Assembly: GCF_017591425.1 (NCBI RefSeq)
Contig: NW_024466218.1
Coordinates: 8,300,001 to 8,364,000, forward strand
DNA: 64,000 nt
Origin: Ochotona curzoniae
Taxonomy: Eukaryota > Chordata > Mammalia > Lagomorpha > Ochotonidae
Direction of reading: 5' to 3'
Of this stretch, positions 1 to 33,400 are shown piece after piece. Positions within the stretch are counted from its first letter, which is position 1; the number at the start of each line of letters is the position of its first letter. The notes under the pieces were generated by a model. The model made no database searches. It saw only the letters and a program-made list of their open reading frames with translations, and was not told where the DNA came from. A program made the translations under genes and the position numbers.

Positions 1-389
1 AAAACAAAAATCAAAATAAAAAAATTACTAGCAGGGCAATGCGGTGATTAAACCTAGCAGTTACCAGTGAAGACCTCCATGTCACAAAACACACAACATG
101 TGCTGGAGTCCCAGCTCCACTTTGTTCTAACACAGACACTGGGAGGCAGCTCAATGCTAGGGGTTCCTGCCTCACTCGTGGACTTCAACGGTGCTCCTGG
201 CATTCTTTGTCCCTAGGAAGGCCATTGGAAGCACTTGCAGAATAAATCAGCAGAAAGAACTGTTCTGTTTCTGCCTTAAAAAAAAAAAGAAATGAAAATT
301 TTGAAACACAGGCAAAATTAAAATAGTAAAACACTGACAAGTGATGATGACAAAAATTGGAAAGTAAAATATTTGTTTAAGTGACTGAT

Positions 390-700
390 ACAATGGTGAG
401 ACTAGCTAATCCTCCGCCTTACAAATGCTAGCATCAGGTAAGGGCACCAGTTGCTGACCTGGGGGCTTTAATTTCCTTCCAGCTTCCTGCTTATGGCTTG
501 GGAAAGCAACAGGTCCAAAGCCTTGGGAAACTGGACACACAGAGGTGACCTGCAGGAAGCTCCTGGCTCCTGGCTTTGTATCAGCACAGCTCAAGCAAGC
601 CGGGCAGCCACATGGAGAGCGACTGACAGACTGGAAGATCTCTGCCTCCACTTCTCTGTCAAACTTTCCTATAAATAAAAGTTTTTAAATCATTTTTAAA
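390..700 (+). mobile_element. CSINE, plus
   Basis: Core CCAGCTTCCTGCTTATGGCT with AGCTCCTGGCTCCTGG and tail TATAAATAAAAGTTTTTAAA. The 5' third is diverged. Confidence 0.8.
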
Positions 701-839
701 AGTCTTTATGAAAAATCTCCTTAAACATAATTCTAGTACCTACCCTAATTTGTACAAGCTCTCAAAACATACAACAGAAATATATGATCAACCGTACTGT
801 GCTCATTTCCAGGTCTATGTCAACAAGTGGTCTTCCTTC

Positions 840-1000
840 TTATTTCCCAGTCTTCAGTGGAAAAGCAGAGAGACGGTGATCTCCCATCTACGGGATCACT
901 CCCAAATGGCTGTACTAAGCTGGGATGGGCCAGGCTGAAAACATTGGTGGCAAGGTCCAACCCACCTGAGCCACCCTGTGCTGCTTCCCACAGTATATAC
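840..1000 (-). mobile_element. CSINE fragment, minus, old
   Basis: GATCTCCCATCTACGGGATC, ACTCCCAAATGGC and TGGGCCAGGCTGAA are the reverse of the SINE 3' half. Strongly diverged. Confidence 0.55.
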
Positions 1001-1444
1001 ATCTTTAGAAAACTGGATCCGAGGCAGAGTCGCTGGCACTCAAACCAAGCACTCCCATCTTGAAGCTGTGATGAAAACACCAAGCCATGTACTTACTCCA
1101 AGGAATGTTCTTCCCAATGCTGCTAGATCGCATGGCTAGATTTAAGTAAGTAAATCCCCCCCAGACGGACACTGAGGAAGACATCAGCTGTACACAATCA
1201 GTAGACACTAATGGACTCCAAAAATTATTTTCACTACAAAGTCACTAGAAGGACATAGCCACAGACTGCAAAGGTCTTGAGGGGGAATGAAGTTCTCACT
1301 TTACCAAGCGCCTTCCTTTTGCACACTCCAGATTCAGATGACTGTATTACAACAGAAGGAAATGATACAAGCATAAAGAGCACAATAAGGCTATGATGTC
1401 CATTCCTTTATCTAGCCAACACTGCTTCTGTCTGCATGACTTAC

Positions 1445-1542
1445 CATTCCCTCCAAGCCAACTCGAAAGAGGCTCTTAGCACCATTATCCCAGAGAACAT
1501 GGGCTGCACTGTGGATTTCTGCACTGCCTGGATTTCTGGAAC
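1445..1542 (-). pseudogene. MIB1: MIB1-like exon with splice sites, 7-nt deletion
   Basis: The minus strand reads HSAAHVLWDNGAKSLFRVG LEGM, 19 of 23 residues identical to the second MIB/HERC2 domain of MIB1 (E3 ligase of Notch-ligand endocytosis). The match starts right after an acceptor (ACTTTTGTTAG) and stops right before a donor (GTAAGT). The exon is 98 nt; I infer 105 nt for the MIB1 exon. A 7-nt deletion in the first third shifts the frame, so it is broken. Intact intron borders mean it is not an mRNA retrocopy but a piece of duplicated genomic DNA. A possible remnant of the next MIB1 exon (CTGGAGTGTGC) lies near 1300-1341. Assignment is from memory of MIB1. Confidence 0.65.
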
Positions 1543-2106
1543 CTAACAAAAGTTTTGCAGAAAAGAATGGTGTTTCAAGCAGAGAAAAAAGGCCACTTCT
1601 TGGCATGATCATTTTTAAATTTTGAAAAATCTTTTTACCCGAGCCTATGTAACAAATCATACGAAACAAACACTTACTTGCCAAACACAAGTTCCTTCTA
1701 ACATAATGAGATGATGAGTCAAACGTAGCTTATCAACCCACTGTAAAAGGTTCAAGTCAAAACATTTTAGGAATTAAGTCACAAAACAAAACGTTACATG
1801 TTAATTTGTATTCTTAAAAATGTTTAAGACCTACATATTCATCTAAGCCCATTCCTCAAAACAAACTTCTCCATGTTTGATCAAATATTCAAAATCATTG
1901 TCAAGAAATCTACACTCTCAGGAGCTACAAGCTAAGAGCAGAAGGCTCTGGGAGAGACAATGTCCCAGAGGACTGGAGTTTCTTTTTTCCTTCAGCAGTC
2001 CACCTTGCTTGCTGCACCAAGAGCAGGCAAGGAAGTTAAACTGGCATACATCATATAAGAAAGCCAAACAGGATTTGTTGGCCCCTCAATCAACCAGGCT
2101 GATTAT

Positions 2107-2400
2107 CTCTTTTTATTTCTTGGAAAGGCAGAGCTGGGGAGAGAGAGAGGGAGAGACAGAGAGAACATGTTTCCATCTGTTAGTTGACTCCCCAAATGGC
2201 CACAGCGGCTAGGGCTCATCCAAGCCAGGAGCCAGGAACATCCTCTGCTCTCCCACATGGAGAGCAGAGACCCAAGGATTTGGCCCATCTGCCACTGCTT
2301 TCCCAAGTGTATAAGCAGGATCTGTATCAATAGCAGAACAGTCAAGACAAATCACCACCCAAAAGGGAGGCCTGCACCCAGGTGCCAGCTTGATTCACAA
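2107..2400 (-). mobile_element. CSINE, minus
   Basis: Starts with a TTTTATTTCTTGGAAAGGCAG tail (21 nt in the element), then GACTCCCCAAATGGCCACAG, CCAGGAGCCAGGAAC and GCCTGCACCCAGGTGCC at the head. Diverged about 20%. Confidence 0.8.
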
Positions 2401-2574
2401 GGCCCCAGGTGTGACCCCAACCACACTGATTCTTAAACTCATTTAACTAATACACACTCACACACAAATGCATACAATCTTCAGAAAGCTCATGGAAACT
2501 GAGTATTCCTCAAGAGTGTACACAAGAATTTGTATTTTATGTCACTTTGTTGTTGTTGTTTTGCTGCTGTTGTT

Positions 2575-2760
2575 TTAGTTACTTTTACTTATTTCAACAG
2601 CACAACAGAGAGAGTACCAGCGGGCATCTGCTAAGGGTTCACCTCCCAAATCCTGCTACAGAGCAGGCAGAAGCCAGGAACTCCAAGCTGCACTGCCTCC
2701 ATGGGGACAGTCATTCAAACACTTGAGCCATCACCAGTTGCCTCCCAGAGCAAACTGGAG
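2575..2760 (-). mobile_element. Possible old CSINE, minus
   Basis: TTTACTTATTTCAACAGC, AGAGAGAGTACCAGCGGGC and GAAGCCAGGAACTCCAAGC fit the reverse SINE order but with many gaps. Confidence 0.4.
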
Positions 2761-2954
2761 CAGCAAGCTGCACTTGGGCAGTGATCTGACACTGGGTAGA
2801 ACTGCAGCACAGGAAATGCAGGAGGGAGCACCGGAAGGCCCTGTATTTTTCATAACAACACTTGTACACACGTGCTGGGGAAGCGGAGCCAAAAGGGTGA
2901 AGGGACCAGTGGGCTCTGGAGGGGCAGGGCAGGGTGAGGCCTGTGCCCGAATTC

Positions 2955-3045
2955 CAGGCACCTCCAGGCAACAGTTTGTTGCTAACCAACGCCCATTGTG
3001 AGCTGCCTATATAAGACCCAGCACATACTGGTCTGGCGACACTTT
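2955..3045 (+). promoter_or_regulatory. TATA promoter with RFX-like half sites upstream of the coiled-coil ORF
   Basis: TATATAAG lies at 3008-3015, 54 nt before the first ATG, which places initiation near 3038-3045. Just upstream (about 2961-2983) is GGCAACAGTTTGTTGCTAACCAAC-like sequence (24 nt, split here as GGCAACAGTTT and GTTGCTAACCAAC). It contains GGCAAC and GTTGCT half sites resembling the RFX X-box. Such a TATA plus X-box layout occurs in some testis or ciliary genes; function here is inferred. Confidence 0.5.
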
Positions 3046-3068
3046 GTGGGACTGTCCAACTGAGCTGG

Positions 3069-5231
3069 ATGCTCTCTGAAGCTCTCTCAGGGACCCTCAG
3101 CCAAGTCCTTAGGGATCCGTGGCGTAGGCACCAGGCTAGGCCACTGCCTGTGACAGGCAAAGGACACCAGCAGCTATTTCACAGAATACCTGTAAAAGGT
3201 GTGTGGAGGAAGCACCTCCAAGGATGTGAAGAGGACATGCTGTCAAGTCTCTCCACAGACCTGGAAACATGCTGTCAGACATGGGAGCTGCACGCCAACC
3301 AGCACACTGCCCATCCACAGGCTTTCCCGAAACAGCTGGATGAATTCAGAATTGAATCTGAACTCTTTAGCACCGACTCCACCCATCACGACGGAGATGA
3401 TAAAACAAAAACTGGAAAGCTCAGAAAGGAAGTGGCCTGGCCCTTGCAAACGGTTGGGTGCTTTTCCACCAGAGAGGATCTCCTCAGAGCACCAGCACCT
3501 CTACCAGAGGCCTCCAACAAGCTGACCTTTCCTGAGGAAACAAAACCTGTGGCCTGCCGTGAGCCTCCTCAGTGGCTCCTCCAAGAGAATGAAAAGCTCA
3601 AGATATCACTAGCCACCAAAGAAGAAACCATCAGGCTCCTCCAGGAGTGGATCCACACACTACCTCAGGACATGGCAAAGGCCACACAGCTGGAGACACA
3701 ACACCACCAACTGTCACTTGAGCTCAAACAACTCAAGAAGAAACAACAGGAGCTACACAAGCTAATGAAAGGCAAAGAGCTCTTTTGGACAGCCAAAAAG
3801 AAGAAACTGAGCTCTCTGCAGAACCACCTGGCAAAGATACAGGAGGAAAATGAGACGCTGAAACAGACCATGATGAAACTAAGTGACTCGGAGTGGTTTC
3901 TTGATACCACACATCACATTGACCAGGAATCAAGTGACACCGACTTGGCACACAACCTCATCGATACTAACGTCACAGCCACAGAATTCAAGGAGGAATC
4001 TGGCCAAGTCCTGGAGACACTTGAACACCTTTCTCCAACCAAAGAAGATTGGCTAAGACACCTCCAAGGTTCTCCAGAGGCCTCCAACAGGAGACAATTC
4101 GCACAAGAGTCTCCACAGCTCACGGAACCTGGGACCCTGAGTGAGTCTTTTGAACACCTCAAAGGAGCCACCAAGAAGCCAAAAGCATCACTCACAGCAA
4201 GACAAGCCACAGCCACGCTCCTCCTGGAAGAAAGACACACAATGGATTCTTCAAAGACTGACACCACATTGGAGATGGAATGCAACCAAATGGCTCTGGA
4301 GATCAAGCAACTGAAGGACAAACAGGAGTACTTGCAGAAGTTACTGAAAGGCAAAGATCTTTTCATGAATGCCAAAACGAAGCAGCTACGATCTCTCAAC
4401 AAGAGTCTTGCAGACAAAGAGAAGGAAAATAACACTTTACGGCAAACCGTGAGAAAACTCTCAGGCTCCATGACTGACACCATGACACTGGAGACCCAAC
4501 ACGACCAAAACTCTTCAACACTCGAGGAAATGAGGAAGAAGCAACAGACACTAGAGAAGCTAGTACATGGGAAAGGACTGGTTCTCAGACACAAAACTCA
4601 GCAGTTACGCACGCTCCAGGACACCCTTGTCCAGAAAGAGGAGGAGAATCGGATCTTAAAGCAATCTGCGACCCAATTAGAAGAGGCCGTGTCAACACTG
4701 CAGAAGGAGATTCAGCAAAAGACACAGGAACAGGAGATGAGACCTGACACAGCTCAGGAAAAGGCGACACTCAAAGACTCCAACACAGTGAGGATGACAT
4801 CCTGTGCAGAGGATGAGTTCGCTGCCCATTCACTCAGGGAGGAGCTCTGCACTCGTGAGCGGCTGCTGAAAGAAAAAGAGGACCAATCCCAGAAGCTCTT
4901 CAGTGCCACAGAAGCCATTCTGAAGCAGATCCTAGTGTTCCAGCAGGAGAAAGATGCAATGCTGCTGGCCATGCAACAGAAACACCTGCAGGAACAGGTT
5001 CTGCAGAGCTCACTGCAGAGCTTACAAGAAATGTTCAGCCAGGAGTGCAACAGGGACCACCTCCAATGCTGCTGGCCCGGGGACACCGATGCCCTGGGGG
5101 GAGCAGCCCATGATGACACAGTTGGCCCTGGTCACCTGCACCAACACCCCGAGAGGCAAGGCCAAAGCCGACACCGAGATCCAGCAGCAGTTGCCCTCCA
5201 ACCCCAAGCACAAGCCTTCCACAAAGGGTGA
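3069..5231 (+). CDS. Intronless 720-codon coiled-coil protein with duplicated units, unknown family
   Basis: Open for 720 codons, far beyond chance. I do not recognise the family. Residues 1-130 are non-helical; from about 165 to 660 it is Leu/Glu/Lys/Gln-rich heptad-like coiled coil. A 68-residue unit occurs three times without gaps (207-274, 400-467, 473-540; shared core KGK-L-F/L with L-SLQ/N). The first two sit in a larger ~190-residue duplication (both start T-R/K-ED-LR and contain PEASN). Leucines shared by units 1 and 2 nearly all use different synonymous codons, which points to selection on the protein. The first ATG (3069) has a poor context; the second in-frame ATG (3237, codon 57) has G at -3 and could be the start. 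The last ~55 residues are read from YBX1-derived DNA in another frame. A germ-cell role is only a guess from the promoter. Confidence 0.7.
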   Translation: MLSEALSGTLSQVLRDPWRRHQARPLPVTGKGHQQLFHRIPVKGVWRKHLQGCEEDMLSSLSTDLETCCQTWELHANQHTAHPQAFPKQLDEFRIESELFSTDSTHHDGDDKTKTGKLRKEVAWPLQTVGCFSTREDLLRAPAPLPEASNKLTFPEETKPVACREPPQWLLQENEKLKISLATKEETIRLLQEWIHTLPQDMAKATQLETQHHQLSLELKQLKKKQQELHKLMKGKELFWTAKKKKLSSLQNHLAKIQEENETLKQTMMKLSDSEWFLDTTHHIDQESSDTDLAHNLIDTNVTATEFKEESGQVLETLEHLSPTKEDWLRHLQGSPEASNRRQFAQESPQLTEPGTLSESFEHLKGATKKPKASLTARQATATLLLEERHTMDSSKTDTTLEMECNQMALEIKQLKDKQEYLQKLLKGKDLFMNAKTKQLRSLNKSLADKEKENNTLRQTVRKLSGSMTDTMTLETQHDQNSSTLEEMRKKQQTLEKLVHGKGLVLRHKTQQLRTLQDTLVQKEEENRILKQSATQLEEAVSTLQKEIQQKTQEQEMRPDTAQEKATLKDSNTVRMTSCAEDEFAAHSLREELCTRERLLKEKEDQSQKLFSATEAILKQILVFQQEKDAMLLAMQQKHLQEQVLQSSLQSLQEMFSQECNRDHLQCCWPGDTDALGGAAHDDTVGPGHLHQHPERQGQSRHRDPAAVALQPQAQAFHKG

Positions 5232-5901
5232 CAAGAAGCTGATCAACACCAAGGTTCAAGGAACCATAAAATGGTACAACATGAAGACCAGATATGGCTT
5301 CATCAGCCAACATGATACAAAAGACTTCTTTGACCACCAGACCACCATTCAAAACCGCAAGCCCAGGAAGTACCTACCAAGTCTAGGAGACAGCAAGACT
5401 GTGGAGTTCGACGTGGTACAGAGCCAGAAGGGTATGCAGGCCTCCAACTTCACAGGCCCCATTGCAGCTGCAGTGCGCGGCAGCACATACCTGGCCCACA
5501 GGGGCCGTTCCCTGAGCTGCCGTCGACGCAGGGCTCCTCGGCGCTATCTCCCACAGGGTCACCTCACCAGCGACACGGAGGGCTCTGACAGCACCTGGGA
5601 AGACCAGGACCCACCTAGGAAGGCCAGGCCCCACCTTGCTGACCTACAAGGCTGGCCAAGGCTCCCACCCTGCTATCAGCAGAGACCCTATGGGCGCCAA
5701 AGGCCGCATTCCCACACCCCACTGCCAGGGCAGGCTCAAGGGGTTCAAGATGCCCAGGGCCCGGCTGCACCCAAACACCAAATGCACACCCAAGACCAGG
5801 GAGGAGACCCCCACGGCCAGCAGCCAACTCTCAGGCGCTCTCCACACAGCCAGCCAGACAGCCTGAAACACCAAGATGACACAGAGGTCAGGGCTGCCTA
5901 G
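4954..5901 (+). CDS. Open frame through the YBX1 retrocopy (+1 relative to the coiled-coil frame)
   Basis: A 315-codon frame overlaps the last 278 nt of the coiled-coil ORF and is shifted by one base relative to it. Residues 1-38 are out-of-frame coiled-coil DNA, about 39-73 come from the YBX1 5' UTR, 95-169 are the cold-shock domain and the rest the basic tail. No promoter or good start is visible for it alone. It could be reached only by a frameshift, splicing or internal initiation. It may equally be a non-translated relic. Confidence 0.3.
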   Translation: MQCCWPCNRNTCRNRFCRAHCRAYKKCSARSATGTTSNAAGPGTPMPWGEQPMMTQLALVTCTNTPRGKAKADTEIQQQLPSNPKHKPSTKGDKKLINTKVQGTIKWYNMKTRYGFISQHDTKDFFDHQTTIQNRKPRKYLPSLGDSKTVEFDVVQSQKGMQASNFTGPIAAAVRGSTYLAHRGRSLSCRRRRAPRRYLPQGHLTSDTEGSDSTWEDQDPPRKARPHLADLQGWPRLPPCYQQRPYGRQRPHSHTPLPGQAQGVQDAQGPAAPKHQMHTQDQGGDPHGQQPTLRRSPHSQPDSLKHQDDTEVRAA

Positions 5902-6310
5902 CTTGCTCCCCACAATCCACTTGCTCCCCAAGCTTGGTAAGGAAGCCCTGTCTCAACACCCCCACCACCATCCCCTTGACTCATCCAACAACCAGGGAAT
6001 TGGACATACAACTCCAACACCTCAAACACCTCCACACAAAAGACCACCCTCAGCACTTAGGATCATTCCTTGACCACTGAACCTCATGAACAGATCTATT
6101 ACATGCTTCACTGAGCTGATGTTTACATGAGGCTGTCTCTTTCTTGATCATCAAAATGGACTTTGTTTCCTCAGTACACCTTGGAAGGTTTACTGAGTGA
6201 GTTGTTTCCTATCTGTCCAAGTGGACATTTTGAAGAAATTTGGATTTGGCCACATGTCATCTGCCAACTTTTAACTCACAACTTGTTGGCAAGAAAATAA
6301 ACCAATGAAC
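5067..6310 (+). pseudogene. YBX1: YBX1 (Y-box protein 1) retrocopy, diverged
   Basis: Intronless copy of the YBX1 mRNA. YBX1 5'-UTR-like sequence starts about 5067. The cold-shock domain is at 5236-5460 (GTIKWYN, YGFIS, PRKYL, TVEFDVV), with about 45 of 76 residues identical to YBX1 by eye. The Arg/Pro/Gln-rich tail (e.g. QRPYGRQRP) runs to TAG at 5899-5901, where YBX1 also stops. 3'-UTR similarity (TCATCCAACAA, later AAGGTTT...GTTGTTTC) continues to an A-rich AAAATAAACC near 6293. The YBX1 start codon is lost. RNP1 keeps YGFI, but RNP2 VFVHQ has become FFDHQ. The frame has one in-frame codon loss and no stop over ~275 codons despite heavy divergence, which is odd for a dead copy. It is fused to the end of the coiled-coil ORF. 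Confidence 0.8.
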
Positions 6311-6859
6311 AAGCCAAGACGACATACTGGCTCACCTCATGCCATTCTCATAGTAGAGGCACAGCTAGGAGAGGCGAGTTTTACACACTAAGGCAATGGA
6401 AAGGACTCAACCACAGGTAGCCTCAGGTAAGCAACGCAGAAAAGCTTCGAGAGGCCAGCTCAGCAGACACACAAAAGGGCGTTACAGCCTTCTGCTTCAG
6501 AAGACAAAGAGAAGCAGTGCACTGTGCCACTCACAGAGTGAGAAGAAAAGTTGACCATTTTATAACAAATGTCTATAGAAGAAGATCTGAAGAAAACCAA
6601 CGGCAAGAACAAGCTGCAGCACAAGCAGCAAGACAAGGTCCTACAGGACGCGCTACGCACTTTCCAGAGACCGAAGAAATTTATAGTGTCCACAAGACTA
6701 GGTGGACAAGTCCTAATAAAGTTTCTCACATCCCGAAACTGGTTGCTGTAGTATCTGTAGAACCCTCCAATGAGCCCCTCACAAAACACACAGCAAGCCA
6801 GTTTCTGCTTGAGGGTGGGTATGGCATGGGAGGGGGAGGGGATTCACAGACAAGGGAGC
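6311..6859. other. Nothing recognised between YBX1 retrocopy and SINE
   Basis: Contains short A-rich, Gln/Arg-type frames (6517-7041 and 6569-6751, plus) that are mutually overlapping. I see no homology, promoter or splice context. Confidence 0.4.
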
Positions 6860-7190
6860 TCCTGGGAACCAGCACGGTGACACCGCACATCAGGGAGACA
6901 TCTTCTTGGGTGCCAGCATCCCACATGGGCACTGAGTCTAGTTCCAGCTACCCCTCTTGCAATCCAGCTCCCTGCTACCTGGCACAGGCAAGCAGGAAAG
7001 GAAAAACTAGGTGCCTGACCAACTGCCCTACACATGGGTGACCTGCATTAAGCTTATGACCCCTGGCTTCACTCTGGCCCCGCCTAGCCCCTTCCTGCTA
7101 TTTTAGGAGTGAACCAGCAGATGAAAGATCTCAGCCTCTCTCTCTCATTCCCAGCAATTCTGCCTTTCAAATTAAGATCTTTTTTCTGAT
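6860..7190 (+). mobile_element. CSINE, plus, old
   Basis: CATCCCACATGGGCACTGAG, CAATCCAGCTCCCTGCTACC, AGTGAACCAGCAGATGAAAG and the tail CTGCCTTTCAAATTAAGATC in order. Confidence 0.75.
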
Positions 7191-7211
7191 AACAAAGATC
7201 TTCGTTTTGTT

Positions 7212-7540
7212 GTTTTGGTTTTTAATAACTGAAAGGCAGTTTCATGGAGAGACTAGGAGAGACAAAGATCTTCCTACCTCCATTGGATCACTCCCCAAAT
7301 GGCATCAGCAGCCAGAGCTGGCACAGCCTGAAGTCAGGTGCCTGGAGCTTCCGCCGACAAACATGCAGGAGTACAAAGACTTGAAACAGCCTCTGATGCT
7401 TTTCCAGGCACGACAGCAGAGAGCTGGTTTGGAAGTGAGGCCGCTGCCACTAAAAAAGGTCCCCACTTGGCAATACTGGTGCCACAAGGGAGGCTTAGCC
7501 TGCCAGGCCACAGCACTGGCTCCTCAAGTTAAAATCTTCT
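7212..7540 (-). mobile_element. CSINE, minus, old
   Basis: TTTAATAACTGAAAGGCAG, GATCACTCCCCAAATGGC, GTGCCTGGAGCTTCC and GAGAGCTGGTTTGGAAGTG in reversed order. Meets the previous SINE tail to tail, forming an imperfect hairpin-like pair. Confidence 0.75.
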
Positions 7541-7651
7541 AAAAACATTGATGTGCCAACATGCAGAGCAACGAGTCCACAGCTATGGCTCAAGTCCTAT
7601 GCTCCTCAAGGAGGGGGAAAGGTAGTCAATTATTTAAAGATCAGTTGCTTT

Positions 7652-7972
7652 TGGGCCCAGAATGGCCTACTGGTTAAACATTCACCTTGCGTGTGCCGAG
7701 ATCCCAGATAGGCATCATTTCGTGTCCTGGCTACTCCACTTCCCATCCAGCTCCCTGCTTGTGGCCTAGGAAAGCAGTCGAGGATAGCCCAAAGCCTTGG
7801 GACTCTGCATCCATGTGGGAAACGTGGAAGAGCCTGGAGCTCCTGACTTCGGATTGGTTCAGTTCCTGTGGTTGGTGAATAAATCATCGGATGGAAGATC
7901 TTCCTTTCTGACTCTCCTCCTCTCTGTATATCTGACTTTGCAATAAAAATTTTAAATCTTAAAAAAAAAAAG
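7652..7972 (+). mobile_element. CSINE, plus, near full length
   Basis: Head GGGCCCAGAATGGCCTACTG, core CCAGCTCCCTGCTTGTGGCC, end GATCTTCCTTTCTGACTCTC and the tail CAATAAAAATTTTAAATCTT plus an A-run. Confidence 0.9.
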
Positions 7973-8239
7973 AGGAAGAGTTAAACCCCAAAACAAAGCT
8001 ATAAAGTACTTCCCACCATGTTCAATAAACACAAGATGTTCCAAGTCCGCTATTCACAATGCATCTTATATTCCATATTTCTGAATGAAATCCTTCAATT
8101 TTTCAGGAAAAACATACCGCCCATTCTGAAGCTAATGCTGAACTAGTTAGAAAAGCTTGCTCGCCGCACCTGTAGAATCTATCAGCCACAGGTTCAACCT
8201 TGCAACTCTCCGCCCAGTTAACAGCTCTCTAATGAGATG

Positions 8240-9060
8240 AATACTGAGATCAGGACGGCCGCTCTCCTAGCCGCGGGATAAGCGACTCTCTCCTGCGGCT
8301 GCAGCGCAGCTGGCCCATGCACACTTTGAGTCCCCTCTGCCGTTCCCTCACGCTCGTGGGCCAACCGCACGGACAGAGTGAAAACAAGCGGTCACATGGG
8401 CAACCCGTGACTCCCACTGCGCGGCAGTCCTTGCTCGTCACAGAAACTGAAAAGTTACCACGGACGCCCGAGAGTCCCGGGAGCCGCGGCTGAGGACCAG
8501 GCAGGTGCCCGCGGCGCGCGCACAGACCCGAGCCCCAGGGCCGTGCCCGCACACACCGCCCCGCTCGGCCACCTCCCGCACCTTCCTCCCGCCCAGAAGC
8601 CCCCAGCCCCGCGCGCCGTCCCGGAGCCTCGACCCTGCCGGACCACCGTCCCCACAGCCGCTTCGAGAAGCCCACGTCCCTCCACCGCGGCCGCTCCTGG
8701 GGCTCCCCGAGCACCAGCCCGGGACCCCGGCGACACGGCTCGGCCGCCAGAAACTCACCGACGCCGCCCCTCGCTCCGGCTCGCCCGCTCGCTCCGGCTG
8801 CCACGCCCCGAACACCCGCGCGCCCCGCGCCACGACCCGCTGTCCTCGCGGCCGCCCGGGGCCACAAGGAGGCGGCCCGCCCCGCCAGTGGCGCCGCCCT
8901 ACTGGCCGGACCCGCACCACGCAGGCTGCCGGGAGCACGTGACTACCGCGTGGGGCCACGCCCCGCCCTCGCATCGCTCCTATTGGTCCCAGCCAACCAC
9001 GCCCCGTTTCAGGCCTTGCCTGCAGCGTCCTGGAAAGGCTCAGGTGACAGGTGACAGGTG
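8240..9060. promoter_or_regulatory. Orphan CpG island, probable promoter
   Basis: About 0.8 kb of very GC- and CpG-rich sequence (densest 8460-8980) in an otherwise AT-rich window. It contains an E-box CACGTG at 8936-8941 in a CLEAR-like setting (CACGTGACT), GC boxes near 8957-8971, and ATTGG at 8982-8986, i.e. a minus-strand CCAAT box. A canonical donor (GTCG|GTGAGTT, minus) ends at 8758, so a minus-strand first exon of about 8759-8900 is plausible. It is not the TRAPPC8 promoter, which lies far to the right, and no B4GALT6-type first exon is visible. Confidence 0.6.
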
Positions 9061-9298
9061 ACATGGAGCACTCCATGCAGAACTGCAAGTGCCTGGGACC
9101 AGAGGCCCACCCCCTCCATCCCAACTCAAGCAAAATGAAAATACTGGGTTAGTATTTTGGAAATTTGTTGTTAAACAAACACATCCAGACTTTGTGCTTA
9201 TTCTGCTTTGCCACCTCTGTACAGACTGGATGACAATGGGTCTAGCCAGAGGAGTTTATGCCAGTGTGAAGGCTCAAATTCTACTATATCTATAGTTA

Positions 9299-9621
9299 TT
9301 TTTTTAAGATTTATTTTTATTGGAAAGTCAGATACATAGAGAGGAGGAGAGACAGGAATATCTTCCATCCAATGATTCACTCCCCAAATGGCCACAATGG
9401 CTGGAGTTGAGCCAGTATGAAGCCAGGAGCCAGACGCCTCTTCCGGGTCTCCCAAGCAGGTGCAGGGTCCCAAGGCTTTGGGCCATTCTTGACTGTTTTC
9501 ACAGGCCACAAGCAGGGAGCTGAATGGGAAGCAGGACCCTCAGGATAAGAACCAGTGCCCATATGGGATCCCAGCATGTGCAAGACGAGGACTTCAGCTG
9601 CTAGTCTACTGCGCCAGGCCT
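9299..9621 (-). mobile_element. CSINE, minus, near full length
   Basis: AAGATTTATTTTTATTGGAA tail, CCCATATGGGATCCCAGCA, ending in the reversed head ACTGCGCCAGGCC. Well preserved. Confidence 0.9.
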
Positions 9622-10629
9622 ATCTACAGTTTAAAAAAATTATGAAATTACAATTATTTTTGTCTTATAGACCATGTTTGCATAATTGAACAACGTGGGA
9701 AGGACTGAGGGTTAGGGAAAAGTGGGTGAGAGCATTGTTTCCAAATTTTCTTCTTCCTGTACCTGGGGGGAAGGGAGAAATAAGGGGAGAAGCCCCACTC
9801 AACTTCCCAACCACCCCAGTACACAGCAATGGGGAACAGGCACCCGATATCAACCAAGCCTCCTTGATGTGGAGCTCGTTCTGAGAGTTCTGTTTGAGTG
9901 GTTTTGATAGTTCTGAAATTCTGTCAATCTCACAGATTCAAGGATGAGGCCAATGTCAGGCCAATGTCAAGCCAATGTCCATTGGCTGACATAGTCAACC
10001 TAAGAGTCTCCATTTGCCCAGATATTTGCTGGCACCTCTGGTTTGGGGAAGTTATCCAGTTTGTTTTGCCCTATGGTACCAGCTTTCCTCTGCAGGCTCC
10101 AATGGGCTGCCATATCTTCTGTGTGCATATGGTTCTTCCATCCAGTGCTCCATCATTACCTCTGAGGAGGCCCAGTTCTGCCTCATGCACTCCATGGTCA
10201 GACCACCAACCCTGAACGTGAGCCCTCTTTTTGCCACACGCCCCCATCTGTGCTATCCCCCAGACTCCCTGCAACCCCATACACCAAACCCCCTCAAGAC
10301 CCTCACACCCAGGCCTCACGGACCTACCTGGCACCCACCATACAGGTGGGCCAAAGGACCCAGGCTAGGTGACCCTGGCTCCACTGGAACCTGCACTCCC
10401 TGGGCTCACAGATCTGGCACCCACCACTCAGGAGTGCATAAGGGCCCAGGCAGGGCAACCCCGAGTCTAACAACACATTCTCAGCATCAGATTCTGCATT
10501 GCAGTTATTTACAACAGGTTCAATACACTTTGATCTTCCCTTGTTTTTACTTAGATATAAATGGATTGTCTGAATTTGTAACAAAGCATAAAACAAAGCC
10601 ACAAGTAACTTTAACAACATATGTGAGGG
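9622..10629. other. No gene; possible unclassified repeat
   Basis: C/T-rich sequence with short repeats of GGCCAATGTC (9949-9985) and CACCCACCAT/CACCCACCACT motifs (about 10330-10430). The style resembles retroelement UTR sequence, but I cannot assign a family. The 212-codon frame at 10014-10652 has no recognisable content. Confidence 0.35.
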
Positions 10630-10862
10630 ACCTTTGTGGTATAGATAGTTAAGCTGCCCCTGCTAATAACCTGGAAAAGCTGAAGATGGTTTAAATGCTT
10701 GGATCCCAGCTACTCATGTGGGAGACCCAGATGAAGCTCCCGGCTCCTGACGTCAGCCTGGCCCATTCCCAGCTATCGTGGTCCTTGGGGAGTGAATTCA
10801 ATGATGGAAAAGATCTGTCTCTGTCGTCCCCTCTCTCTCTCTAAGTCTGACTTTAAAAAGAC
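10630..10862 (+). mobile_element. CSINE, plus, internal deletion
   Basis: Head GTGGTATAGATAGTTAAGCT, then CATGTGGGAGACCCAGATGA and GGGGAGTGAATTCAATGATGG. The central CCAGCTCCCTGC part is reduced. Confidence 0.75.
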
Positions 10863-10914
10863 CAAAGACTAGAAGCAGGTATCATCTGCAGTTGTAGATA
10901 CATGTATCTGTATC

Positions 10915-11215
10915 TCACCGTGGAATGCCTGGATTGGATAACCATGTCCAGCCCCAAACTCCAGTGTTCTGCTAATGCAGATCCTGAGATGGAGTAGTAA
11001 TGACAGCTCAAGGAATACAAGCTCCTGCCACCCATGTGGGAAACTTGACTGAATCCTCAACACCAGCGTCAGCCCTGCCTGGCCCAGCAGCTGCAGGCGT
11101 TCAAAGAGTGAACCAGCAGATGGAAACTTTATCTGTGTTTCTATCTCCTTTTCAAAAAATTAATTTTTTAAAAACAAAAAGAACAATAAGTAAATAAATA
11201 AATAAAACAAAGACT
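10915..11215 (+). mobile_element. CSINE, plus, old
   Basis: CCACCCATGTGGGAAACTTG, GAGTGAACCAGCAGATGGAA and an A-rich AAATAAATAAATAAA tail; the front is diverged. Ends about 150 bp before the inferred TRAPPC8 poly-A site. Confidence 0.7.
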
Positions 11216-11364
11216 ATACGTTCAGTTTTAAAATGATGATAAAGCTTTCTCAGAAAACCGGGCTGGGACTTGCTATAATCATACAGTTGGCATTTATTTT
11301 AAGTAGAAAATATATTAAACCCTTAGAAACCTAGGTTTTAAAAAAGCAAGAGAACCACTAAATA

Positions 11365-12172
11365 CATACAGTGAATAGCATGTCTTTATTCTATTTACAG
11401 TACATTTGTTATAAATATAATACATTTTGAAAAGCTTACTTTTTTAATTAACTTGAGCATTAATCCTTTAAACAGATCAACTCAATTGTTAAAGTTATAT
11501 AGTAAGAATATGATAATTTTAATGACAAAAATCTCATATTGTGAAATAGTGCATTCTATACTGAGATGAATGGGAGGAAAGTCAAACTTTCAAAACTATA
11601 TTCAAAGTATCAGAAAAAAGTTTTCTTTTTACAAAGTTATGTATAAGCCATAGGGACCACCAGATACTGAAATATGAAGACTCTATAACCAAAGTTCAAA
11701 ACAGATTTTAGAGAATTTTGTGAACATGGAAAAATTTGGATTTAACACTCTATAGAATATAGAATTTCACAGTAGAGCTGGAATTTATAAACTAATGGCT
11801 TAGCAGGAGAACTTTCCCAAAAAAGTCTTTCCTCAGAATCATCTCTGATTATTCATATGCCATCGACAAGTTGTAAGAGTAGACCCAGACATTCTTTTTC
11901 AACATGGGGCTTAATGAGGTACATGGGTAGTTGAAATTCTGTATTATAAGCATGTAAATTATTACCAGGGGTTAAGAAATAATAAACAAAAAAAATAACA
12001 CACATATTCTCAGTCCAATGTGCTTTATATCCTCAACAGAATGGCAATCAAAGAATTCTGCAGTGATCAGACTCCAACCTCTGTAACAAGTTAGGCATTT
12101 CACATACTGCTGTAAAACCCATTCGGCAAATTAAACTGATGCCTGTGGATTTCAGCACACACTTGCAAGCTG
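11365..12172 (-). other. TRAPPC8: TRAPPC8 3' UTR
   Basis: About 0.8 kb of A/T-rich unique sequence between the TGA and a minus-strand AATAAA. It holds no SINE, although SINEs lie on both sides, as expected for transcribed 3' UTR. The exact cleavage position is inferred. Confidence 0.75.
11385..11390 (-). terminator. TRAPPC8: TRAPPC8 polyadenylation signal AATAAA
   Basis: TTTATT on the plus strand reads AATAAA (AATAAAGACATGC) on the minus strand, about 780 nt after the stop. GT/T-rich sequence (AGTGGTTCTCTTGC) follows about 40 nt downstream. I judged it the best candidate near the end of the repeat-free stretch. Confidence 0.65.
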
Positions 12173-30400: not shown

Positions 30401-33400
30401 AATATTAGAATGTTTACTTGAAGATACATATATATACTGAACATAAAGGTTAAATCAAAACTGTTTTATGACACTTACCGTATTTTAGGCTGCCTCGCAA
30501 CATTTTGATAGTAAAACAAAAAGTTAATTTCATGAACACCTTCCTCATCTGGCCCACGTAACCACATTGGCAGCTGGACTGAAGCTCCAGGCAGAAGAAC
30601 GGCATTGGGAAGGGGAACAGGAATCACCTCTGGCTGGCTTCCTATGCCAGTGCCAAAGTCTACAGAAGAAGCTGATGAAATGAGTGCTGTGCACTCACAG
30701 GTAGAATCTGTCACAACAGTCTTGTAAGCGCTGCAGTTTTCAGAAGCGGAGGGACTTAGTGGTGTTAGAACAGCAGTATTACCACCGAAAGTGAAGAACT
30801 CTGGACGTTTAGACACAACCTTCAAGCCAGTCAGAGGGCATTTGCTGACATTGACAAACTCTACATATGCTTTTCGGATTTCTCCACAAAGAAGCCCTGT
30901 AGGAAAATGTATAAAGAACACCTGCATTGGAGGGAAAAAATATTATTATATTGTCTGTCAAAATTTCTGAACCTCTGATGACTAACATGTTAAGATACTA
31001 CATTTCTTTACTGAAGTTTTACACAAATTTCATTCATTGTGCATATAGCATTAACAACTCCATTTCGGAAAAGATGAGACAAGGAGAAAAAATCTGGTAC
31101 GTAGCTTTGAAATTGTGAATTGAAGGGGAAAATATCAATAATACAAGGCCTAACACTAAAACACACACTACTTTGTAGATTATAAACAAGAATTAAACAT
31201 GTTCTATGAATACCTATCAGTCTTACAACCTTCATCAGTGTCAATTTAAGAGACTCACTATCAATTTTTGCACCATTACATTGAAAAGACACACCATGGC
31301 TGTTAAGGGAGAAGACTGTGCAGATTCATGACTCCAAAAGGATTTGAAAATCACAAAGAGCTCTAACCACTTTTGGCTTTTACCAAGTCATGTAAGGCCC
31401 AATTTTGACCCAAATCAGACTTTTAATAATCTTTCCCAGTTACTCCAAAATTCAGATACATCACACAAGAGACAATGATGTGTTTCGCCAAGGACTAGGA
31501 ATAAATAAGAAATCTGGACTACAAAGGTTACTGAGTGGCATACTTAAAAGATCCCTGAAGGGGCTGGCAATGTGGTAACAATTAAGCTGCTACCTGAAAT
31601 ATCAACGTCCCATCTGAGTACAAGTTTGAGTTCAAACTGCTCCATTTCCAATCCAGCTGCCTACCAACATGCCTCAGCAGAACATGGCCCAAGTTTTTGG
31701 GCCCCTGCCATGCACAGGGACACCTGAATCAAGCTCCATTCTCCTGCAGGTCAACAACTCAAGAGTTAGTACATAAGGCGCCATTTTTACACTGTGGCAA
31801 TTTAGGACTGCAGGAAACAACAGTGAACTGAGCATGTGCTGAACTTGCCAGAACTCAGAGATCACTGGATTGCACTGCTCCCGCAGGAAAGTAATACCAA
31901 CTGTGGCATTGTACAGTCAAAATAGGTCTGTATGGCACCCAGACCTAATGTCCAACAGGTTCTGGCAAAATCAGCACCACCAACAACCTAGCTATACAGG
32001 ACACCTGGTGTCTCCCTAATCCTGGGACCTGCTCCAACCAGAAGTGGGAGAAAGGTTGTACAGACAACGGTGCAGCCTCAGCACAGTATCACAGGAGGTG
32101 GAGATTGGTGAGGCTATGGAGACCACAGTAGAAATCTAACGTAAGAACCCAGACCTGCAACTCGCCGGGAGGAGTGGCACAATTGGCTGCAAGCAAAGAG
32201 TTGTGTGCCAACTGCAATAAGTAAAATCACATTGTAGACCTGGGGGTGACACAGCTTAGAAACCTGCCCCCCAAAAAACCAAGGAGAAGACTCTGCTAAC
32301 CAGAAGTACAATGATCAAGAGCAAAAGAAGAGACAAAGGCACAATGAATATGACTAAAAACTCCCCTGCAAAGGAGCAAAACCCTATGCCAACCTCAGAG
32401 TTAACTGAGGAAGACATCGAGAAAATGGGGGACACAGAATTCAGAAAACTCATTTTAAAGATTCTAATCAACAATGAGAAGCACATACAAAAGTTCAAAG
32501 AATTTAAGGGCTATTTTACACAAGCAATAGCAGCCATAAAGCAAATCAAGGCTGATAATATCAGAAATTAAGAACACAGTAGAGCAAATTAAAAGTACAG
32601 TGGAGAGTCTCCAAAACAGAATGAAGCAAGCAGAAGAATCTCAGAATTGGAAGGTATTTCCTGTCATCAGGGGGAAGCAAACAAAAAGCTGGACACAGAG
32701 CTGGATCAGGCCAAAAAAGTATTCAAGAATTAAAAGACACTAGTAAGAGGCCAAATATAAGAGGTATGGGAGTCCCAGAGGTGCAGAAACAGAAACTGGT
32801 TTTACAAATATATTGAATGAAATAATAAAGGAAAATTTCCCTAATCCAGAGAAAGAATTGGGAAACAAGATCCAGGAAGGGCACAGAACTCCCAACAGGC
32901 TTGATCAAAAGCAATCTTCACCAAGACACATGATCATCAAGCTCTCTTCAGTTGAACATGAGGTAAAGATTCTTAAATGTGCACATGAAAAAAATCAATT
33001 GACATATAAAGGTATGCCAATTAAACTCACAGGAGGTCTCTCATAGGAAACTTTACAGGCAAGAAGAGAATGGAGTGACATATTCCAGAGTCTTAAAAGA
33101 AAAATTGCATGAACTAGAAATCTGGGAGCTGGAGCCAGAATTATGGTGTTGCAGGTGAAAATGCTGCCTACGATTCCAGCACCATATTTCAGTGCCAGTT
33201 CACGTCTAGCTCCCTGCATATGGGCCTAGGAAAAACAGGAAAATGTCCAAGTGCTTAGGCCTCTGCACGCATATGGGAGAACTGTACCAAGCCCCTAGGT
33301 TTCTGGCATCAGCTGGCTCAGTCCCCAGCTGTTGTGGCCATGTGGGGTATGAACCAGCAGTTTCAGTATTTCTTTCTGCAAATCTTTCAAATAACTAAAG

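Follow-up and report, generated by a model that had tools for sequence, protein, structure and literature searches.

An Ochotona curzoniae open reading frame as a probable damaged copy of an intronless gene family with a TRIP11/GMAP-210 coiled coil in front of a YBX1 tail

The golgin TRIP11 (GMAP-210) is a long protein encoded by many exons, and its C-terminus carries a GRAB domain. The sequence of the ALPS motif at the GMAP-210 N-terminus is printed in PMC2744908, and the section of that paper cited here describes an ALPS-coiled-coil-GFP construct of GMAP-210 that goes to the Golgi. Y-box proteins, according to the relevant sections of PMC7226217, reach high levels in germ cells, where they repress translation; the same sections describe the roles of the RNA-contact residues in their cold-shock domain. 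A third described system is that of the core-duplicon genes GOLGA6 and GOLGA8 in primates, which the part of PMC6920530 devoted to them presents as golgin-derived and closest to GOLGA2 (GM130).

The window analysed here is a stretch of 64,000 nucleotides of Ochotona curzoniae DNA (C682:8300001-8364000). A sequence-only reading had singled out within it an intronless open reading frame (ORF) of 720 codons, with a TATA box 54 nt upstream, in the neighbourhood of TRAPPC8. All three features were recovered, the last of them through a Pfam match:

Positions 3069-5231, plus strand: reported ORF, 720 codons, open with 0 internal stops.
Positions 3008-3015, plus strand: TATA box TATATAAG, 54 nt before the ATG at 3069.
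Positions 30475-30927, minus strand: TRAPPC8 exon (Pfam PF24544, 1e-55).

Our reading, to which we assign a probability of about 0.8, is that this ORF, with damage at its 5' and its 3' end, belongs to a family of intronless pika genes in which a TRIP11/GMAP-210 coil is followed by a YBX1 tail, and that the in-frame copies of this family are predicted RNA holders at Golgi-type membranes. The family falls into three groups, here called A, B and C, and compares with the described systems as follows. The coil derives from TRIP11, as does the N-terminus of groups A and B, and the match stays colinear to the point where the giant TRIP11 exon ends; A, B and the window copy follow TRIP11 past that point as well. 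The family differs in being intronless, in lacking both the GRAB domain and about 1,240 internal residues, in the triplication of one unit (groups A and B) and in its Y-box tail. The cold-shock domain and tail at the C-terminus come from YBX1, with the RNA-stacking residues Trp65, Phe74, Phe85 and His87 kept in all five B copies compared; here the differences are the long coil in front and, in group A, the missing domain core. The ALPS-coiled-coil-GFP construct, as described in the cited section of PMC2744908, resembles groups A and B in joining an ALPS segment to a distant TRIP11 coil, but it is man-made, uses another coil segment and carries GFP instead of a Y-box domain. GOLGA6/GOLGA8 share with the pika family a golgin-derived coiled-coil gene that multiplied in a single lineage through tandem and segmental duplications, although the nearest golgin, in the part of PMC6920530 that deals with them, is GOLGA2 and not TRIP11. 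The nearest kind of system is a golgin-derived core-duplicon family, and the new element is the Y-box fusion. We know of no RNA-binding domain fused to GOLGA6/GOLGA8. Among open-licence PubMed Central papers we found none on this family or on a golgin-coil/Y-box fusion with about 40 open copies, and none with both Ochotona and TRIP11; in the main text of the American pika genome paper (PMC9635661) the terms TRIP11, thyroid, Y-box and cold shock do not occur.

The genome that contains the window (2.08 Gb, 1389 contigs) was searched for relatives; 62 of 288 candidates were scored, so that the counts are lower bounds. At least 39 other matches cover no fewer than about 570 of the ORF's 720 residues, and at least 35 of them are stop-free: at least 12 in group A, at 64-68% identity, and at least 23 in group B, at 48-50%. 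The remaining four near-full-length matches carry 1, 2, 5 and 18 stops, and partial and broken matches rank lower among the family matches. Since the same frame is open in so many further near-full-length matches in the same genome, the ORF is beyond chance. Group C comprises 4 further intronless ORFs of 808-839 aa with a cold-shock domain, three on contig C277 and one on C1. A Pfam search finds this domain in 19 group B ORFs of at least 864 aa; the other 4 of the 23 end at about 650 aa, ahead of it. The native ATG is in frame in 10 of the 12 open A copies, the exceptions being the copy at C452:331887, which has none, and that on C883, whose frame is shifted just after the ATG. The family thus has roughly 40 open intronless copies, a number that may be inflated, as small unplaced contigs may be haplotigs. 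The TATA box is common to the relatives as well: TATATAAG precedes the start site by about 95 nt in every one of the 12 stop-free A copies, and in several B copies too, and a variant, TATGTAAG, occurs in L030 and L036. The view that this is a pika coding sequence, intronless and shaped by protein-level selection, is borne out.

Members of the family already have names. NCBI calls at least one each in O. princeps and O. curzoniae 'thyroid receptor-interacting protein 11-like'; P0004, the O. curzoniae entry, is identical to L019 over residues 1-646, and an O. princeps relative, P0003, combines the coil with the cold-shock domain. In word-limited protein searches, no named fusion member appeared outside pikas, those among the matches listed being Ochotona-named or unnamed. 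Two unnamed members, P0002 and P0005, lie on contigs of 3,703 and 1,786 bases and could be assembled transcripts.

The source of the coil emerges from a weak family match at C351:6922251-6922793 (31%, E 2e-14), which lies inside a 1040-aa exon-like open frame. From this frame, 297 residues (L051) are 65% identical to residues 1209-1512 of a rodent TRIP11 (P0007), which identifies L051 as a pika TRIP11 exon. The exon ends in GAACAG/GTATGT, with a donor-like CAG/GTATGT (the slash marks the exon end), and a profile search including L051 retrieves vertebrate TRIP11s, with seven TRIP11-type proteins among the matches listed. The family coils align to TRIP11 residues 1270-1580, approximately, with composition-corrected E values against the pika exon of 1e-8 for the window copy and 5e-18 for group C. 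Against the rodent TRIP11, with composition correction off, residues 178-665 of the window copy match 1068-1581 at E 9e-34, where off-register coil matches reach about 1e-13, and residues 135-433 of group C match 1280-1600 at E 9e-29. In one A copy, one B copy and the window copy the coil runs past the TRIP11 exon end without an intron, and for none of the three did any of 1000 shuffles reach the score of this further segment; for group C, 184 of 1000 did, and its segment past the exon end has no match to TRIP11. The N-terminus of groups A and B, MSSGI..GLG..LGHY, resembles that of TRIP11: when its 30 residues are set against TRIP11 1-60, the score is reached by 0 of 1000 shuffles for a B copy (L030) and by 1 of 1000 for an A copy (L009). 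Its ALPS-like character is weak, the helical moment being reached by 9-24% of shuffles versus 0.5% for GMAP-210. The GRAB domain PF10375 is listed in 4 of the seven TRIP11-type proteins; in Pfam searches at E up to 1 it was not listed in the window ORF, L030, L034, L010, L049 or P0003, and for want of this domain the family is not TRIP11 proper. From these alignments we infer that the coil is a processed, internally shortened copy of TRIP11 in which one unit was later triplicated.

The other end of the fusion is of Y-box type. Pfam PF00313 is matched in members of groups B and C, and the tail of L049, a group C copy, has YBX1 as its best PDB match (126 bits, versus 115 for YBX2). The domain is in the same frame as the coil in the 19 B and 4 C ORFs but not in the 12 A ORFs: in 11 of the 12 open A copies its core is deleted in frame, with a glycine/alanine-rich insert ahead, and the copy on C1215 ends earlier. 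As these 12 copies lack the domain core and 4 B ORFs stop short of it, RNA binding cannot be the role of the family at large. Five B loci were compared, and all keep 10 of 11 RNA-contact residues (Trp65, Asn67, Tyr72, Phe74, Asp83, Phe85, His87, Thr89, Asp105 and Lys118), with Asn70 replaced by Ala or Ser; in group C the number is 9 of 11 in L048, 8 of 11 in L050 and 6 of 11 in L049. AlphaFold gives poor models, with a mean pLDDT of 42 for a B protein and 34 for its cold-shock domain.

Within the coil, a 68-residue unit had been described as present three times and a unit of about 190 residues as duplicated. The three short units are there:

Positions 3690-3893, plus strand: 68-residue unit 1, residues 208-275 (omega 0.54).
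Positions 4269-4472, plus strand: 68-residue unit 2, residues 401-468 (omega 0.52).
Positions 4488-4691, plus strand: 68-residue unit 3, residues 474-541 (omega 0.60).

The longer duplication stands as a repeat at 193-residue spacing, but is weak outside the 68-residue core. Units 1 and 2 are identical at 37 of 68 residues, with different codons at 18 of the 37 shared positions, in keeping with the earlier estimate of about half. NG86 omega between units is 0.20-0.37, at a dS of 1.4-1.7, near saturation. The purifying selection that had been read from these codon differences dates to an ancestor: since the triplication is common to groups A and B, the codon differences record ancestral selection and not that on this copy. 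Group C has one 68-residue unit only.

The copies are embedded in a larger shared segment, which appeared when positions 1-12000 of the window were compared by blastn with 29 loci:

Positions 713-7612, plus strand: segmental duplication unit, a block of about 6.9 kb, colinear with several dispersed A copies, promoter and 3' flank included (blastn).

Because colinearity covers the promoter and the 3' flank, these copies spread as DNA and not by new retroposition. The outer edges of the block enter repeats at about 475 and 7778; those at 390-680 and 7660-7965 of the window, which look like lagomorph CSINE repeats, are a possible seed of the duplications. At the start of C682 (1868-62096 of a 39.9-Mb contig) stand six near-identical B copies, five of them in tandem at a spacing of 12.10-12.11 kb and the sixth inverted, in an array that is possibly collapsed from a larger one.

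Set against its relatives, the window ORF follows the family frame at residues 37-660, approximately, and nowhere else; the first 36 or so residues and everything past residue 660, approximately, are out of that frame:

Positions 3069-3176, plus strand: first 36 codons of the reported ORF, leader and N-terminal region, out of family frame.
Positions 3103-3105, plus strand: family start-codon site, AAG in the window copy, ATG in 10 of 10 aligned relatives.
Positions 3151-3153, plus strand: TGA in the original family frame of the N-terminal ALPS-like segment (from the alignment).
Positions 3177-5048, plus strand: core, TRIP11-derived coiled coil, residues 37-660, in family frame and stop-free.
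Positions 5061-5231, plus strand: tail of the ORF, out of frame after the 3' lesion, ending in TGA 5229-5231 ahead of the cold-shock domain.
Positions 5257-5457, plus strand: cold-shock domain of YBX1 type (60 bits to PF00313), read in another frame, that of an ORF at 4954-5901.

The N-terminal lesions were read from a nucleotide alignment with ten relatives. An 8-nt deletion in the leader causes the N-terminal stretch to be read off the family frame, and a later 1-nt deletion restores that frame near 3177, before residue 37 or so; through the two, the leader ATG at 3069, upstream of the native start site, shares the frame of the core. The equivalent of this ATG in L009 lies 14 codons ahead of the main start and is followed by an in-frame stop; L030 and L034 have an ATG starting at the base equivalent to 3069, and the other seven aligned relatives have none there. 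At the 3' end, a deletion of about 0.12 kb near 5060, relative to the B copy L031, shifts the frame. The cold-shock domain beyond it has one residue deleted in comparison with B copies, and its detached frame is still open. NG86 omega of this domain against two B and two C loci is 0.23-0.32 at dS 0.9-1.8; the open frame and low omega are compatible with a recent 3' break, the pairwise values also reflecting the other lineages. Neither the native start nor the ALPS-like segment survives in the window copy, and its cold-shock domain is no longer in frame.

Selection on the family is real, but moderate and regional. NG86 comparisons of the window copy give a median omega of 0.50 with group A (13 pairs) and 0.51 with group B (6 pairs), and the bootstrap intervals lie below 1 in all 4 window pairs tested; the alignment left out L022, L035 and L037, the last two of which carry long ORFs. 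These values (0.5) imply stronger constraint than the codon models, run on 9 of the 20 aligned sequences over 618 codons, in which omega is 0.70 under GY94 and 0.74 under MG94 (2dlnL 19.1 against omega 1). On the branch leading to the window copy omega is 0.64 (2dlnL 3.42, p about 0.06) or, in the other model, 0.65 (2.68), not significantly below 1. Within group A it is 0.71 (2dlnL 6.7), and within the group B coil 0.90, not below 1. Along the coil, constraint is found at residues 37-110 (0.62) and 166-207 (0.47) and in each of the three units, all with 2dlnL above 3.84; residues 111-165 give 0.75, not significant, and linker and tail are close to 1 (1.13 for 276-400, 1.03 for 542-600, 0.94 for 601-660). 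For the cold-shock domain, 7 of 8 in-frame pairs give an NG86 omega of 0.19-0.37, and the eighth, the nearly identical L029 and L033, gives 0.46 (interval 0-1.88); intervals reach above 1 in 3 of the 8.

Substitution divergence overlaps between the core (11-28%) and the flanks (13-30%, blocks with fewer than 70 aligned sites excluded), and as core divergence is not clearly under flank divergence, the constraint is moderate. The frame signal from indels is stronger than that from substitutions. Against six A copies, all core indels are multiples of 3 except for 1 nt at about 3185, seen against all six and corresponding to the N-terminal frameshift of the window copy, and 1 nt at 5039 against L009 only, whereas in the flanks 3-8 of 19-47 indels are multiples of 3, indels of 60 nt or more being left out of the tally. 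When the window core was made to drift neutrally in simulation, at 0.05-0.19 substitutions per site, it acquired a mean of 4-13 stops and stayed stop-free in at most 2% of runs.

These results bear on several other readings of the ORF. The sequence-only reading had proposed a lone unrecognised gene under selection, and its factual basis (the ORF, the TATA box and the codon differences between units) is sound; yet a single pika gene with no known relative deserves hardly any credence beside the 35 or more other open near-full-length matches, the homology to TRIP11 and YBX1 and the names already given by NCBI. That the block is a mobile element, with the ORF as its own gene, would account for numerous dispersed copies with similar edges. 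We regard this as very unlikely, since the coding part comes from two host genes, the Pfam matches of the six members scanned include no transposase or reverse transcriptase, and the 12.1-kb tandem array looks like segmental duplication.

The present state of the window copy is a closer question. It could still work as a coil-only protein, translated from ATG 3069 or from an in-frame ATG such as that at residue 57, which would pair with intact members and modulate them. For this speak the 624 core codons without a stop, where neutral simulation leaves the frame open in no more than 2% of cases even at 0.05 substitutions per site, a window-branch omega of 0.64, the two compensating deletions that leave the upstream ATG in frame with the core, and the retained TATA box. 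That omega is not significantly below 1 in either model, however (2dlnL 3.42 and 2.68), the copy retains neither the native start nor the N-terminal segment nor a cold-shock domain in frame, and the detached cold-shock frame, open and with low NG86 omega at high dS, fits a recent 3' break; we hold a working coil-only protein possible, with the odds clearly against it. At the other extreme, the ORF could be a dead pseudogene, long by chance. The lost start, the N-terminal TGA and frameshift, the 3' deletion, a core substitution rate near that of the flanks and the non-significant branch omega are all what such a pseudogene would display. But a stop-free core is improbable if the whole branch was neutral, and the core indels, unlike those of the flanks, are almost all in frame; neutrality is tenable for the last part of the branch only, which a damaged family copy allows as well, and we consider chance preservation unlikely. 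A recently disabled copy of the family is the most likely description of the window copy, a coil-only partner a less likely one.

If the ORF is such a damaged family copy, the order of events would be a processed (retro) origin, then triplication of the 68-residue unit, then tandem and segmental amplification. In the intact proteins the ALPS-like N-terminus is predicted to bind curved membrane, the coil to dimerise and the cold-shock domain to bind mRNA, so that the in-frame copies (19 in group B and 4 in group C) would be dimeric coil proteins docking RNA on Golgi-type membranes, with expression predicted in male germ cells. For group A, which has no domain core, and for the window copy, with neither end left, the most to expect would be a role as coil partner. 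A bolder version, which we consider unlikely, has dozens of curvature-anchored Y-box proteins docking mRNPs on the Golgi, in sperm cells on the acrosome side, which would be a new way of attaching messenger RNPs to Golgi membranes; in this version, group A and coil-only copies like that of the window serve as RNA-free partners or inhibitors in an arms race of the male germline. The family is a naturally occurring case in which to ask whether an mRNA dock can be made out of a membrane tether. Present in two pika species and fast-evolving, it also allows birth, amplification, domain loss and copy death to be traced, and scattered pika 'TRIP11-like' annotations become one chimeric family.

Several minor observations accompany these results. 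Taken alone, the window ORF gave matches to a FIP domain (0.2) and to ELKS (0.02) among Pfam and PDB sequences, which we read as coiled-coil noise, and positions 1-10000 of the window had no Rfam match at the gathering threshold. In L015, L017, L018 and L019 the 3' part of the ORF contains a long repeat whose translation in the genomic frame is glycine/alanine; in the NCBI model P0004, this kind of 3' repeat region comes out glutamate-rich beyond residue 646. Three group C copies (L048, L049 and L050) have a hydrophobic, membrane-helix-like start instead of the ALPS-like N-terminus, and a fuller YBX1 tail. Finally, contig C906 carries, at about 8.25, 8.46, 10.48 and 10.51 Mb, four open frames of 1603-1749 aa that are weakly similar (29-31%) to the group C coil, and which may be either long exons of other coiled-coil genes or a further amplified TRIP11-like group.
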